Shown here: in pieces, positions 57,916-64,000 of the stretch
How the letters are laid out: every line of letters starts with the position of its first letter
Numbering within the stretch: the stretch's first letter is position 1
NCBI RefSeq assembly: GCF_964019385.1
Contig: NC_088643.1
Span: 77,701,626 to 77,765,625 of the forward strand
DNA from: Sycon ciliatum
Taxonomy: Eukaryota > Porifera > Calcarea > Leucosolenida > Sycettidae
Reading direction: 5' to 3'
Length of the DNA: 64,000 bases
Made by a program: the position numbers and the translations under genes
Notes under the pieces: model-generated
The model's input: only the letters and a program-made list of their open reading frames with translations
Databases searched by the model: none
What the model was told of the DNA's origin: nothing

Positions 57916-58203
57916 GGGAGTAAAGGGCTACTAAACGCCCATACAACAGAACATCTCTTGTCGGGTCACCTTCCTCTCAACCGGGCACCTTGCAGGCAGG
58001 TACCAGGAGTCAAATCTTGAAAATCTCTTCCCTTTCACGTCGGTCTGCTTAACCGTTTCACCAAAATTATCCTAACTCTCAGATTCCATTGTGTACGACA
58101 GTGATGGGTCGATTTTGGTTCATTGCCATATCCATTATGCTCATGGTGTTCTTCGTGGCATGTTTTTATATGTATGTGTATGCCGCCAGGTGTGTGTACC
58201 CGC

Positions 58204-58243
<40 letters not shown>

Positions 58244-60329
58244 ATTCGTATGTGTACGCGTTCATGTGTGCGTGTGCGCACGCGTATGTGTGTGTGCATG
58301 CGTATGTGCGAGTGTGGGTGCATGCCCAAGTGTGTGTGAACGCGTGTGCGTAAACATCTCCAAGTCTATACACTGTACCTGATGGAATATCAATAGAACA
58401 CACTGGTACATCACAGGCCATTAGGGAATCTAGTAGCTTGTCAAACGGCGCGCGGACATTTCCCTTGAAGCTGAACCCAAATATACCATCCAGAACAACT
58501 TGATATTGATCACGGATGTCTGTCGGCGACGGGATGACATCCGTACCCAGCAGTGGGATATTCATTACCACACAGGACTTGCTCAGGTTAGTGAACGGCA
58601 AGCGCTCCGGTCGTTTCGGATACAGCACAGTCGGTGAATAACCCTTTGAGAAACGAACAGAGGCAGGAACATGAGGAATGGCTCAGAGTATGCAGACCAA
58701 CAGGAGCCGCGCCGCCTGAGCAGTGCATCGCAAAGCTACAGGAGCAGCAGTTAATGCATCGCAGAGCTACAGGAGCAGCAGTCAGTGCATTCCACTCCAC
58801 AATTCATTGCATTATACTGACACAGTGAGTATGCTTTGCTCCCTGCTTTCGGTCGCATACCATGTCCATTGCCACCAACTCGACGGTACAATTGAATACT
58901 GTAATTTCACAAATTTTCGGTGTACTTTTATTTTCGGTACATTCGGTGCATCTGTTTCATACCTAAAATTTCAATACACCGAACAAACACTAACACACAT
59001 AATCCAATAGGAAATTGCTTGTCTGTACCTACGATTTCTGTTCAGCTAACCTGGCCTTTTGCCCTCATACAAAAATATTGAGCACCGAAAATTTCTGAAA
59101 TTAGAGTACTTGTCTCTATAGCCGTACAGGGCTTGAAAGTGATGACGTCAAAATCGGCCAGGGAGTAGTAAGTTGACATCAGATTTCTATTTTGGATCCA
59201 CTAAGGTGTGACTTTGCTATTGCCTCAGTATGTGGGTGCATAGCAACCCACTCATGTCGCATGCAGGGTTGACTTTTACTTCGCCACCAGTTGTAACCCT
59301 GCCCCCAGTAGCCAAATCAGTCAGTTTCACTGGTTACATCACCTTGCTGTGAGCAAGACGGCTTGAAATGTGCTTGGATCCATACAAAAACTGGATCCAA
59401 GTGGATCCAATTTTTGAATTTTTGAAATTGCTGCTATGCTGTGACGTAGCACTTTCAAGCCCTATTAGGTATGTGGCTGTACGTGTTTGCATGATAACTT
59501 TCAACTCAGGTTGAGTTGAACTCTGGATGAAAGTCTGTATAATTAAAACAATAGGTGGGTGTTTAGTTGCTGTTTTAATACATGTACCTGAAAAAGGTTG
59601 ACCCGGGTCGATTACTGATATGCCGACAAGTCAATTTCTGTGGTGTAGACCCGTTTGGCAAAGTGGCTACTTTGGCGGGAAAGCCGCATGTGCAATGCTG
59701 CGCAAACCTGACGCGAAATACGTTTTCTCAATTTCAAGTTTTCAACCCCCCCCCCCCCAGGAGGGGATCTCTGGGTCAAGCGCGGTGCGTCATGGAAACA
59801 CTCAAGTCAATCTGTGCTCGCGGCGGGTTGTACCAGTTTGAAAACGGCCATGTACCTAAACGCAGCCCGCATCGCAAATATTGAGCCATGCTCAACTCCT
59901 GCAATCAGTCAGTTGCTGTGGTTGCGTATAGTGCCTGCAGTGGGTGTAAATTGGGGGAGTTCCAGGTTTCCCGGACGGTAAAATAAAGAAAACACTCACA
60001 AAGGCTTTGAGATGGCGAGCAGCAACCAGTCCATCTCCACCATTGTTGCCTGGCCCACAGCACACCAATACATTGCACCTGACAGGATAGACCTTGGCTA
60101 AGCCTATAGCAACGCTCAAACCAGCCAACTCCATCAGCTGGTCTAGGCCATAGCCACACTCGTTGAATAAGTCCTGGTCCAGTTGCTGGGCATCAACCTG
60201 ATTCAGGTAGCCAGGGTGAGATGCCTGTGCTGGGCTTGTCCTCGCCATTGTCCTCCTAGGTCTAAGCAAAAACTGTTGTGATTGGCGAGCGCGGCGGCCC
60301 AAACTACCCAGGCTGACGAGCAGCCACAT
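57538..60329 (-). CDS. NAXE: NAD(P)H-hydrate epimerase (NAXE)
   Basis: Three exons: 60329-60000, 58643-58379, 57764-57538; 822 bases, 273 residues (human 288). The enzyme interconverts R and S forms of hydrated NAD(P)H so that the partner dehydratase can restore the cofactor. Residues 1-45 are Arg-rich without acids ([20 protein letters not shown]), fitting a mitochondrial targeting peptide. Then comes the YjeF_N fold: [14 protein letters not shown], the phosphate-binding [52 protein letters not shown] (split across the second junction) and [12 protein letters not shown]. All motifs are intact. Intron 1 carries two MITEs, intron 2 a GT repeat. A Penelope-like element ends about 120 bases upstream of the ATG in the same orientation. 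Confidence 0.93.
57840..57922. repeat. GT/G tract in NAXE intron 2
   Basis: Two related units of GAGTGTGTGT followed by G runs and AGTAAAGGG. Confidence 0.85.
58205..58350. repeat. GT-rich microsatellite in NAXE intron 2
   Basis: (GT)n then degenerate GTGTGCATGCGTATGTG units, close to the donor at 58378. Confidence 0.9.
59128..59463. mobile_element. MITE with AGGGCTTGAAAGTG ends in NAXE intron 1
   Basis: Ends AGGGCTTGAAAGTG...GACGTCA and TGACGTAGCACTTTCAAGCC, 336 bp. No clean target duplication, so the superfamily is open (hAT-like possible). Confidence 0.5.
59475..59867. mobile_element. decayed PIF/Harbinger-like MITE, family A copy 3
   Basis: Ends GGCTGTACGTGTTTGCATGA / CATGTACCTAAACGCAGCC and internal TTGACCCGGGTC mark it as a diverged relative of the copies at 8851 and 39581. 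The target duplication is lost. In NAXE intron 1. Confidence 0.55.
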
Positions 60330-60449: not shown

Positions 60450-60804
60450 CTGAAGAGGGAAACATCCCCGACACAAGTTGTTTCACAGAACACATATTTT
60501 TCGGTTTTACAAATCTTTTTAAAGGACTGACCGGTTTCGCTGTCTAAGGCAGCTCATCAGAGTGAAGAGAAATGTAAAAACACAACAGAATTTATGCAGG
60601 CGAGAGTGGCACTAAATTATACATGGATACAAGTAGGCCGCCAAAATGCTAGGGGCCCCAAGAGCATTGGGAGTTCCTAATTTGGAAGTGCTGCAATTCT
60701 GTTATGACATATGTGTAATAATGTGGGCTTGAATTCCAATATGGATGAATGCTTATATGGAACATGCTTTGTAATTATGAACAAGTAGTATGTTGTACAT
60801 GAAA
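60450..60804 (-). repeat. pLTR-like direct repeat, downstream copy
   Basis: Begins CTGAAGAGGGAAACATCCCC and matches 63646-64000. The true repeat may extend toward the RT stop at 60969, but the partner sequence is outside the window. Confidence 0.85.
60505..60579 (-). ncRNA. type I hammerhead ribozyme, downstream pLTR
   Basis: Read on the minus strand: CTGATGA, stem II GCTG/CAGC with loop CCTTAGA, GAAA, a minimal stem III (CC/GG), then the GTC cleavage triplet (531-529), with cleavage expected between 60529 and 60528. Stem I closes with ACT/AGT at the core and TTTTAC/GTAAAA further out. All core residues are present. Very short stem III is characteristic of retroelement hammerheads. Self-cleavage would trim element transcripts at the pLTR. 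Confidence 0.85.
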
Positions 60805-60859
60805 AAGCATGCAAGCCCAGTTTGTACATTATTTCTGTCTGGTAATGTGTACAGACTTA

Positions 60860-60895
60860 TTTTTGGCAGTGTCAATATATTGACACTGCCAAAAA
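60860..60895. repeat. 36-bp perfect palindrome
   Basis: Left arm TTTTTGGCAGTGTCAATA followed by its exact reverse complement, between the RT stop and the pLTR. Could form a strong hairpin in the 3' UTR of the element RNA. Confidence 0.9.
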
Positions 60896-60968: not shown

Positions 60969-62750
60969 TTAGAACAATTGTTTTGTTTTGCGAAAGAAGA
61001 CCATAGCATCAGTGTTCTGGAATGATTCTTCTAGAATAGTTCTAAGACTATTGCGAACAAAGTGTGGGTGATAAGATGTAACAAATGTAACCTTATTACC
61101 AATGTTCTTCTCCTTCTTCTTCTTTGCTGGTGGCAAAGATGGCTTGGCGTCGACGTTACTAAAGACGGCGGCCAGGAAGTCAGGAGGATAACCACGTAGT
61201 CGTAGTCTAGACCAAAAACGCTTACGAATAGACACAATATCAATCAGCAGAGAATTGGTTCTATTGTAGCGGTGAAGTTCAGCCAGAATAAATGAACGTA
61301 GATTTGATCTAGGGTGGTCCGACTTGAATGGTATATACAAATACGCATTCCTAGGTTTTTGATGTGTGCGATACATGAGAATGCAAACATTGTCTGTGAT
61401 GGATCTATATATTTCTAAGTCTAGAAATATGCACTCATGACTGGGAACAGTCCAAGTAAGGTTGATATCAACTAGATCACTATATAGACTAAGTTTGACA
61501 TTTTCTAAGCAAAGGTTTTCGTCGATAACTAGGAAAACATCATCAATGAATCTAGTAAACAAGTAAATAGATTCTTTGAAAAGGCTTAGTGTTTTTCTTT
61601 CATGAATGAAGAGAAAAGCGTTTGCTACGTTTACGGCCATTGGTGTACCCATGGCCATTCCATGAACTTGGTGGTAAATGGAGTCCTCAAAGTTAAAATA
61701 GTTATTCTCGAGAACAAAGGTAATGAGATCTACTAGTAACTGTCTGAGAGGGTGATCAATTTCACTAAGGAGCTGATCGATAGTAGCAATGGTATCGTGC
61801 CAACACATGTTAGTATAAAGACTGACAACGTCTGCAGTGACTAATTTACTGTTTGTAGGGAAATTAGTTGAAGCAAGCAGTGATACGAAACTATTGGTAT
61901 CTGCTAGGACTGTAGATGTGGTTGCTTTATTGATGATAGATTTTAAGTGGAAATCTACAAAACGTGAGGCAGGGGAGGTGCAGTATCCAATGCATGACAC
62001 TATAGGTCTACCTGGTACTTTACCTGCGATAAGATTTTTATGAATCTTTGGCAAAATGTAGAATTTAGCTGGCTTAAAAGGAAAACAGCTAAATAATGCT
62101 TTAGTATCTCTAGTTGTGAGTGTGGCAGAATGCTTGTTGCAAATAGAGGAAAGCTTATCTGAGATCTCAACGTGTAAAGTATCGGAAGAAGTAATGTTGT
62201 TATAGAACTTCTTATCTGACAATTGCCTAATACATTCGGCTGAGTAGTCTTCGCTATTCAGAACAACCGTGCCAAGGTTTTTGTCTGCATTGCAAATAGT
62301 GATGTCAGAGCGGTTATTGAGTGACTGATAAGCTAATTGTTCTCCAGGGGTGAGATTTCTTTTCCGTTTACTAGTGAATTGTGCAGCATTTACGCCGGCA
62401 AGCAATCTGGATTTGAAATCGAGTAAAGAATGTTCAATGTGAGGAAAGGCTAGAGGAGGTGTTTTCTCCGAAGGGAGATGAAAACCCGGAATGTATTGAT
62501 TGTGAGACACTGCAGGCCTTATTCTATCAAATAGGTCATTCCATCTAGCTCTATTCGTTAAGCTCTTTACATCCTGAAGTAATGAAGTTAAAGGAGGTAA
62601 ACGTGTTGTGGGTCTAAAACTTGAGCCATAACCGAGAACCTGCTTCTCAATAGAGGAGAAAGTGAATCGAGAATAATTGTGAAAACCAGAGTTTAAAACG
62701 AAAGTAAAGTGATCTTTGAATTTTAAATTCCAAATGAATTTGAATCTCAA
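60969..62750 (-). CDS. Penelope-like reverse transcriptase without endonuclease (ORF2)
   Basis: 593 codons counted from a TTG; the frame stays open upstream into ORF1, and the first in-frame ATG is only at codon 315. RT motifs in order: ADKNLGTVVL (155-164), LPKIHK (233-238), GRPIVS (247-252), TADVVSLYTNM with catalytic Asp 307, GMAMGTPMA (364-372), RFIDDVFLV with Asp 403-404. A thumb-like region and a basic PPAKKKKEKN stretch follow, and the protein stops at VFFRKTKQLF. In Penelope elements a GIY-YIG nuclease would come next; only about 165 bases separate the stop from the pLTR, so it is absent. The enzyme would copy element RNA in the nucleus, priming from free 3' ends if no nuclease is supplied. 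Translation probably needs a -1 frameshift from ORF1. Confidence 0.88.
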   Translation of the reverse strand: MRFKFIWNLKFKDHFTFVLNSGFHNYSRFTFSSIEKQVLGYGSSFRPTTRLPPLTSLLQDVKSLTNRARWNDLFDRIRPAVSHNQYIPGFHLPSEKTPPLAFPHIEHSLLDFKSRLLAGVNAAQFTSKRKRNLTPGEQLAYQSLNNRSDITICNADKNLGTVVLNSEDYSAECIRQLSDKKFYNNITSSDTLHVEISDKLSSICNKHSATLTTRDTKALFSCFPFKPAKFYILPKIHKNLIAGKVPGRPIVSCIGYCTSPASRFVDFHLKSIINKATTSTVLADTNSFVSLLASTNFPTNSKLVTADVVSLYTNMCWHDTIATIDQLLSEIDHPLRQLLVDLITFVLENNYFNFEDSIYHQVHGMAMGTPMAVNVANAFLFIHERKTLSLFKESIYLFTRFIDDVFLVIDENLCLENVKLSLYSDLVDINLTWTVPSHECIFLDLEIYRSITDNVCILMYRTHQKPRNAYLYIPFKSDHPRSNLRSFILAELHRYNRTNSLLIDIVSIRKRFWSRLRLRGYPPDFLAAVFSNVDAKPSLPPAKKKKEKNIGNKVTFVTSYHPHFVRNSLRTILEESFQNTDAMVFFRKTKQLF

Positions 62751-62755
62751 GTCCT

Positions 62756-63598
62756 TTACTGTCTTCTCTGATTTGGGGGGACAATTACCCTTCTGCCAGT
62801 CGATGCTTTCCCTTGCTGGTTTTTTGGCGGCAGTTTCGGCTTTGCTCTAGGCTTAGGCTTAGGCTTCTGCTTCTGCTGCTGCTGCTTGGACTTTGGCTGT
62901 GTCTTACGAAAGGCTGACTGCACTTCTCGCTTAACTAGTTGGCCAATCTCTTCTGCAGTGGGTGGTGCAACATCCATACTAATGACTTGTACTGTGGTCT
63001 CTTTGGCTTTGGCCCTTGTTAGAGATGCTCTAATACTTCTGGCTAGAGCTGATGCCTTCTTTAAACCAAGTAAGAAGTCGTATCGGTACATAATGCTGCT
63101 ACTGAACAGTGACATGTGCTTGTCTTCGCATAACTCGCTGACTAATTGGTCTAAGTTAGCTCTGGCCTCGACAATGCACTCATCAGCTCGCTTGATTTTT
63201 GCTTGGCAATTGATAACACAATCCTGGGCATAGACTGAACATTCTATAAGTCTTGCTTGTTCTGAAAGCTTGGAGTACTTCTTGACAAGAAAATCCTCGT
63301 AAACTCTCCCTTCAAGCTGGGCCTGCCATTTATCAACCTTCAAGCGGTTCTCACTAATGATCTTCTCGCTCGTAAGGAGCCTATCAACACACCATAGAAC
63401 GTACCGTTCGAGCTCGACGTCTGGGAGCGGGCTAGAGCCGGGTGTTGACGACGAGACGCACGTAGGCGTGTGGTGGGAGAAATCAGCTGGTTCTGCAGTT
63501 GCTGCCGAGTCGTCGTGTCGCTTGCGTTTAGCTGACGTTTCGGCAATAAGAGGATGTCCTGCGCCGAGTGTAGTACCTCGGCGGGTAGAATCTGTCAT
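62756..63598 (-). CDS. Penelope-like element ORF1 protein
   Basis: 280 codons from ATG 63598. The first 60 residues are Ser/Thr/Pro-rich with a KRKR patch that could be a nuclear signal. The middle (about 65-165) is charged and predicted helical, compatible with a coiled coil (VDKWQAQLEGRVYEDFLVKK). The last 60 residues are extremely basic with Lys-Pro repeats (KPKPKPRAKPKLPPKNQQ), suited to nucleic acid binding. No enzymatic motif. A chaperone or packaging role is inferred from the analogy with ORF1 proteins of other retroelements. Confidence 0.7.
   Translation of the reverse strand: MTDSTRRGTTLGAGHPLIAETSAKRKRHDDSAATAEPADFSHHTPTCVSSSTPGSSPLPDVELERYVLWCVDRLLTSEKIISENRLKVDKWQAQLEGRVYEDFLVKKYSKLSEQARLIECSVYAQDCVINCQAKIKRADECIVEARANLDQLVSELCEDKHMSLFSSSIMYRYDFLLGLKKASALARSIRASLTRAKAKETTVQVISMDVAPPTAEEIGQLVKREVQSAFRKTQPKSKQQQQKQKPKPKPRAKPKLPPKNQQGKASTGRRVIVPPNQRRQ
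62771..62777 (-). promoter_or_regulatory. candidate -1 ribosomal frameshift site
   Basis: The minus strand reads C CCA AAT in the ORF1 frame, the canonical X XXY YYZ pattern, five codons (CAG AGA AGA CAG TAA) before the ORF1 stop is reached. A -1 slip here moves ribosomes exactly into the ORF2 frame, which is open on both sides of the site. No obvious pseudoknot was worked out downstream. Confidence 0.6.
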
Positions 63599-63645: not shown

Positions 63646-64000
63646 CTGAAGAGGGAAACATCCCCGACACAAGTTGTTTCACAGAACACATATTTTTCGG
63701 TTTTACAAATCTTTTTAAAGGACTGACCGGTTTCGCTGTCTAAGGCAGCTCATCAGAGTGAAGAGAAATGTAAAAACACAACAGAATTTATGCAGGCGAG
63801 AGTGGCACTAAATTATACATGGATACAAGTAGGCCGCCAAAATGCTAGGGGCCCCAAGAGCATTGGGAGTTCCTAATTTGGAAGTGCTGCAATTCTGTTA
63901 TGACATATGTGTAATAATGTGGGCTTGAATTCCAATATGGATGAATGCTTATATGGAACATGCTTTGTAATTATGAACAAGTAGTATGTTGTACATGAAA
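63646..64000 (-). repeat. pLTR-like direct repeat, upstream copy (cut by window edge)
   Basis: Matches 60450-60804 over its whole visible length. It lies 47 bases upstream of the ORF1 start, so the promoter is presumably within it. Confidence 0.85.
63701..63775 (-). ncRNA. type I hammerhead ribozyme, upstream pLTR
   Basis: Identical to the motif at 60505-60579; cleavage expected between 63725 and 63724, about 127 bases before the ORF1 ATG, which would define the 5' end of the processed RNA. Confidence 0.85.

Follow-up and report, generated by a model that had tools for sequence, protein, structure and literature searches.

Penelope-like elements (PLEs) form the third class of eukaryotic retrotransposons. 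Penelope and Poseidon are canonical PLEs, and Athena, Coprina, and the Terminons are endonuclease-deficient; the telomere-associated ones among the endonuclease-deficient PLEs carry telomeric repeats at their 3′ end or close to it. Retroviruses and LTR retrotransposons are known to frameshift between a Gag-like protein and the polymerase. The canonical Penelope plan is given as a reverse transcriptase (RT) and a GIY-YIG endonuclease in a single ORF, and endonuclease-deficient elements are described as telomere-bound (PMC3846280). Further ORFs besides the RT are reported for Terminons (PMC5408684). A search confined to openly licensed papers, the main ones on endonuclease-deficient PLEs not among them, returned no report of frameshifting in PLEs.

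The element described here lies at the right edge of the window (the whole stretch of 64,000 nucleotides of Sycon ciliatum DNA that was analyzed; 64 kb), on the minus strand. Judged by its sequence, it is a PLE with an RT related to PLE and telomerase RTs and without a GIY-YIG endonuclease. It resembles canonical PLEs in its PLE-type RT, in its direct and inverted pseudo-LTRs (pLTRs), and in occurring as tandem and inverted copies. It differs from them in that GIY-YIG is absent, ORF1 is separate, and the RT lies in the −1 frame, and in that families A to D of the element, described later, have no nearby RT start codon, whereas the descriptions consulted give canonical PLEs a single ORF. The absence of an endonuclease domain is shared with Athena, Coprina, and the Terminons, and ORFs beside the RT are shared with the Terminons (PMC5408684). 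The features of the element, in coordinates of the window, are as follows.

60450..60895, minus strand: 3′ pLTR, 446 bp
60529-60591, minus strand: second copy of the hammerhead-like core, in the 3′ repeat
60860..60895, minus strand: palindrome of 36 nt at the 5′ end of the pLTR
60969..62846, minus strand: RT frame, 625 aa between stops, first ATG at codon 347
62756..62846, minus strand: overlap of the ORF1 and RT frames, 91 nt
62756..63598, minus strand: ORF1, 280 aa, helical core and basic C-terminal tail
62771..62777, minus strand: C CCA AAT heptamer, in register, not conserved
62819..62825, minus strand: A AAA AAC slippery heptamer, the proposed −1 slip site; zero-frame CCA AAA AAC (P-K-N of ORF1)
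63646..64000 (the part in the window), minus strand: 5′ pLTR, the full 446 bp of which extends 91 nt past the window
63725..63787, minus strand: hammerhead-ribozyme-like core CUGAUGAG...CGAAAC, in the 5′ pLTR

An exact direct repeat of 446 bp flanks the element, as seen when the locus is extended past the window (355 bp lie inside it). Ahead of the 5′ repeat, the flanking sequence is the start of the repeat in reverse complement, so that at least part of an inverted pLTR copy is present; pLTRs that are direct and often also inverted are a PLE trait. The identical repeats and the intact frames of the window copy are consistent with a recent insertion. Some 120 bp off the 3′ end of the element there begin minus-strand open frames (58035-60329) that resemble exons of a putative NAD(P)HX epimerase gene.

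The Pfam model RVT_1 matched four of the six family members searched (best E-value 3.9e-6), and the RT protein of the window gave no RVT_1 match at E 1. Alignment by tblastn linked the six family RTs to two ORFs of the same genome that combine RT and GIY-YIG, with E-values of 3e-22 to 2e-29 over about 410-530 columns at 23-29% identity. These two ORFs, in L049 (C13:218900-222000) and L050 (C1:2906800-2909700), are open frames of 749 and 807 aa, and their GIY-YIG matches exceed the curated cut-off (E 6e-4 and 1e-3). The best Foldseek match of a low-confidence structure model of the RT (pLDDT 53) was the telomerase structure TERT 3du5 (E 3e-8), and sequence searches of the PDB with the RT and with an RT profile gave no hits. 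None of the six RTs had a GIY-YIG match in Pfam, the RT frame of the window ending after 625 aa, and no endonuclease was seen by eye among ORFs of at least 80 aa downstream of the RT in six loci (about 1500 nt each; 271 nt for L032). Penelope elements of the type found in L049 and L050 might provide nicking in trans.

Unlike telomere-associated endonuclease-deficient PLEs, the copies found here are mostly interior: of 30 loci, 29 are more than 100 kb away from a contig end and one is within 100 kb, and five of the 30 lie within 1 Mb. No telomeric repeat was seen by eye in the 93 nt that follow the 3′ repeat of the window copy. Tandem and inverted arrays were observed (L004, L006, and L010; L012 and L013; L018-L020; L008/L009; L032), including three copies 4.2-4.5 kb apart on C1 and head-to-head pairs on C7 and C12.

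As an earlier note on this DNA has it, the RT frame of the window copy is −1 relative to ORF1 and is open upstream of the ORF1 stop; it is open from 62846, and the two frames overlap at 62756-62846. The same note had found no early RT start codon, and this holds: counted from stop to stop, the first ATG (at 61808) is codon 347, and the codon number of 315 given at the time compares with about 316 when counted from the ORF1 stop, a difference of counting only. Also as noted, C CCA AAT (62777-62771, minus strand) is in register with ORF1. The overlap in the window family (family A) in fact holds three in-register heptamers, A AAA AAC, C CCC CCA, and C CCA AAT, the first of which lies 48 nt upstream of the last. 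When the last 80 ORF1 codons were shuffled as codons, some in-register heptamer of the form X XXY YYZ fell within the overlap in 17% of shuffles for family A and in 7-57% across seven families; on its own, an in-register heptamer in the overlap is not beyond chance. A AAA AAC appeared within the overlap in 0.5% of shuffles for family A and in 0.5-5% across the families. Two other sources of the frame change were rejected, namely a homopolymer sequencing error, as the same offset with an A6 run recurs in separate families, and decay of a single copy, as the frames are intact in L002 as well as in the window copy.

A whole-genome search with the RT gave at least 78 matches; copy numbers are lower bounds because 70 of 1728 first-look candidates were scored. 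We examined 30 loci from this search and 18 further stretches, two of which overlap, and distinguished nine RT lineages, all from one 538-Mb genome. In families A, B, C, D, D2, E, and F, the RT lies −1 to ORF1 and A AAA AAC is in register in each overlap; in the partial lineages G (L041) and H (L042), the heptamer stands in the RT register. The RTs of representatives of families B to F are 44-65% identical to the window protein. Within the 67 nt compared, CAAAAAAC is the sole block identical in all nine lineages: each of its eight columns is shared by nine of nine, and the other 59 of the 67 columns reach at most eight of nine. The codon before the heptamer differs (CCA, ACA, GCA, or TCA, for P, T, A, or S), with a final A in all seven cases shown.

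This conservation exceeds what the encoded proteins would lead one to expect, as RT synonymous sites are saturated elsewhere. In an RT alignment of six families, one of 75 four-fold degenerate columns shared its third base and none of the 75 was A throughout, seven of 75 two-fold columns in total shared a codon, and invariant columns shared their codon in none of seven cases for Lys and in one of 12 for Asn. In the ORF1 tail past residue 226, only Q244, K259, and N260 are invariant among five families, and K259 and N260 are the heptamer codons. On a skeptical view, K-N in ORF1 and K-K in the RT are both selected; the A bases would then be fixed, whereas the final C does not follow from this alone. 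The last RT-frame stop lies 3 nt upstream of the heptamer in B, 6 nt in D and D2, 21 nt in A, 27 nt in F, 54 nt in C, and 108 nt in E, and the stops in B, D, and D2 therefore leave little room for a shift further upstream. The RT frame has to be open only downstream of the heptamer start, and in some families it is open over hardly more than that. A review counts A AAA AAC among the heptamers most prone to shifting on mammalian ribosomes (PMC5009743). The lineages have a common ancestry within one genome and are not independent trials, so that these figures do not multiply into a combined probability, and several of the junction rows come from tandem or inverted arrays and are likewise not independent.

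At the level of individual copies, A AAA AAC was found in the RT register in 29 of 37 junction rows. The eight rows without an in-register heptamer include one from L047 that is the second match of a copy already counted. In L007, the junction reads A AAA AAT instead. L037 and L048 have A7 at the junction, which places ORF1 and the RT in one frame, and their RT frame is broken further on. L008 and L009 keep the heptamer and have lost the RT register through a downstream change, and no heptamer was present at the junction rows checked for L031 and L043. Two H-like loci, L039 and L040, stand outside the 37-row tally, with alignments that begin later, and read A AAA AAG; hence, the figure of nine of nine depends on the choice of L042 for H. 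In one family D copy, L020 (C7:25924954), the element gives way to unrelated sequence some two bases upstream of the A6 run, as though copying had ended or jumped at the slippery run. One scan with the RT alignment of a collection of viral contigs, and one of a collection of genome contigs, brought up no relative in tblastn.

With a high degree of confidence, we propose that this PLE makes an ORF1-RT fusion by programmed −1 frameshifting at A AAA AAC. One RNA would give rise to two products. Most ribosomes would translate ORF1 and terminate at 62756. A minority would slip back one base at A AAA AAC (62825-62819), the tRNAs on AAA and AAC re-pairing with AAA AAA, and would read on in the RT frame to yield a fusion of about 876 aa, composed of 260 ORF1 residues and 616 RT codons. 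ORF1 would act as a Gag/ORF1p-type RNA-binding assembly protein that bears the fused RT. The overlap, the register, the conservation of the heptamer, and the selection on the RT ahead of its first ATG in families A, B, and C are seen in the sequences; slippage by a minority of ribosomes is what we infer. The arrangement is like the −1 frameshifting of retroviral and LTR gag-pro/gag-pol genes in its basic-tailed upstream protein, its polymerase in the −1 frame, and its class of heptamer (PMC5009743). It is unlike those systems in that the RT is of the PLE/telomerase kind and that Pfam scans found no protease, RNase H, or integrase.

The earlier note had already proposed a −1 frameshift leading to an ORF1-RT fusion, placing it at C CCA AAT. 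Comparison of copies supports the mechanism well and speaks against that site, so that the first proposal had the kind of event right and probably its place wrong. A shift at C CCA AAT (62777-62771), or at the C6 run (C CCC CCA), would have in its favor that both are in register in family A and that C CCC CCA and C CCA AAG are likewise in register in B. However, C CCA AAT itself occurs in family A alone, and C, D, D2, E, and F have no such site in their overlaps, although ORF1 and the RT frame are both full-length in C, D, and E. The note had named the heptamer being lost from copies that are otherwise intact as grounds for refutation; C CCA AAT falls to this condition in C, D, and E, and A AAA AAC withstands it there. 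In the RT frame, moreover, the bases of C CCA AAT encode a CPPK motif, which in family D is spelled by different codons and without a slippery run, and codon choice can therefore explain these bases. In family A, the chance of some in-register heptamer in the overlap is the 17% given by the shuffles. We regard a shift at these C-rich sites as the source of the fusion as very unlikely, and C CCA AAT may be an additional, family-specific site.

The RT could instead be started separately, through re-initiation or internal entry, at a non-AUG codon in families A to D and at an AUG in E and F, or at an AUG supplied by splicing. RT-frame ATGs do occur 15 nt past the start of the heptamer in family E (L022, L024, and L036) and 21 nt past it in family F (L032), so that two of the seven families could start the RT separately too, and by eye the 3′ end of the pLTR carries a pyrimidine tract and a CAG that resemble a 3′ splice site. 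In the other families, the first RT-frame ATG comes only 303 nt (B), 309 nt (D), 756 nt (C), or 1017 nt (A and D2) past the heptamer start, and a start there would cost A to D and D2 conserved sequence. Purifying selection acts in A, B, and C on the part of the RT ahead of the first ATG: dN/dS was 0.25 for L001/L002 (seven synonymous and six nonsynonymous changes) and 0.07 for L004/L014 (four and one), few changes being available in either pair, and 0.14 for B versus C over a longer part, and many residues in this region are invariant across families. Nor would a separate start lead one to expect A AAA AAC to be invariant in the register of ORF1, and we consider such a start unlikely. A slippery run of six A could, in addition, act during transcription or reverse transcription, with RNAs of altered run length fusing the frames, and the A7 genomic copies L037 and L048, in which the frames are fused, would fit such slippage. 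Six A is short for polymerase slippage, though, the run is followed by C in nine of nine lineages although slippage needs no particular following base, and both A7 copies have a broken RT frame; polymerase slippage seems to us highly improbable.

For ribosomal frameshifting at A AAA AAC, a downstream hairpin or pseudoknot was considered as a stimulator and rejected, as both the predicted folds and the pseudoknot scan were at the level of chance. Folds of the 80 nt after the heptamer had z-scores of −0.07 to +2.05 in seven lineages, with no stem-loop beyond chance, and a scan for simple H-type pseudoknots after the heptamer, a crude one that distant or complex stimulators could escape, did not rise above shuffles. 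In having no downstream pseudoknot that such a scan detects, the site is unlike those of retroviruses and LTR retrotransposons. Either the bare heptamer suffices, or there is a stimulator of another kind, or the search was too crude.

The AlphaFold model of ORF1 (mean pLDDT 72) contains long helices at residues 61-97, 113-158, and 163-202, and its confidence is high for these three helices and low for the basic tail. ORF1 had no match in Pfam, and none of 465 Foldseek matches of the model reached an E-value of 0.001 or better. Helical matches of the ESCRT-III/PspA-like kind were weak (E 0.13 and above) and were set aside. We infer a Gag-like or ORF1p-like role for this protein.

A near-perfect palindrome follows the RT, at the start of the pLTR, in families A to E (the window copy, L004, L011, L018, and L022). 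Changes on both sides were seen in eight of its 17 pairs and 85 of 85 cells pair, so that the hairpin or palindrome is maintained even as the bases that form it change. It was not seen by eye in 200 nt of family F. The element is in this respect like Pen2 of Adineta vaga, which is reported to carry a palindrome at the 5′ end of the pLTR (PMC3846280).

The hammerhead-like core, CUGAUGAG...CGAAACCGGUC, is present in both repeats of L001 and in both repeats of L002. It scored 16.3 bits (E 1.1) with cmscan and RF00008, below the gathering score of 48.5, and the core pattern had no match in the nine loci of families B to F that were tried. By eye, a self-complementary ACCGGU occupies the place where helix III of the hammerhead would be, and the structure drawn in this way suggests that the core acts as a dimer. 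PLE hammerheads are described as minimal and without helix III in a review (PMC6155905). Rfam at gathering thresholds and a tRNA scan detected nothing in the window.

Looking beyond this locus, we put forward, tentatively and as something short of an even prospect, that PLEs may include an old endonuclease-free branch with a retrovirus-like plan. In such a branch, ORF1 would be a self-assembling RNA-binding protein and the RT would be its C-terminal extension, reached by a −1 shift at an invariant A AAA AAC with no folded stimulator, the ratio of the two products being set by the heptamer and the host tRNAs alone. If this is true, a telomerase-related RT lineage would show that control of RT stoichiometry by recoding arose in, or dates back to, the third class of retroelements. 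Gene models would then be corrected as well, since RT frames lacking a start codon are probably taken for broken ones in genomes of this kind. A conserved heptamer with no stimulator in sight would also offer a natural case for learning what makes a bare A AAA AAC shift.
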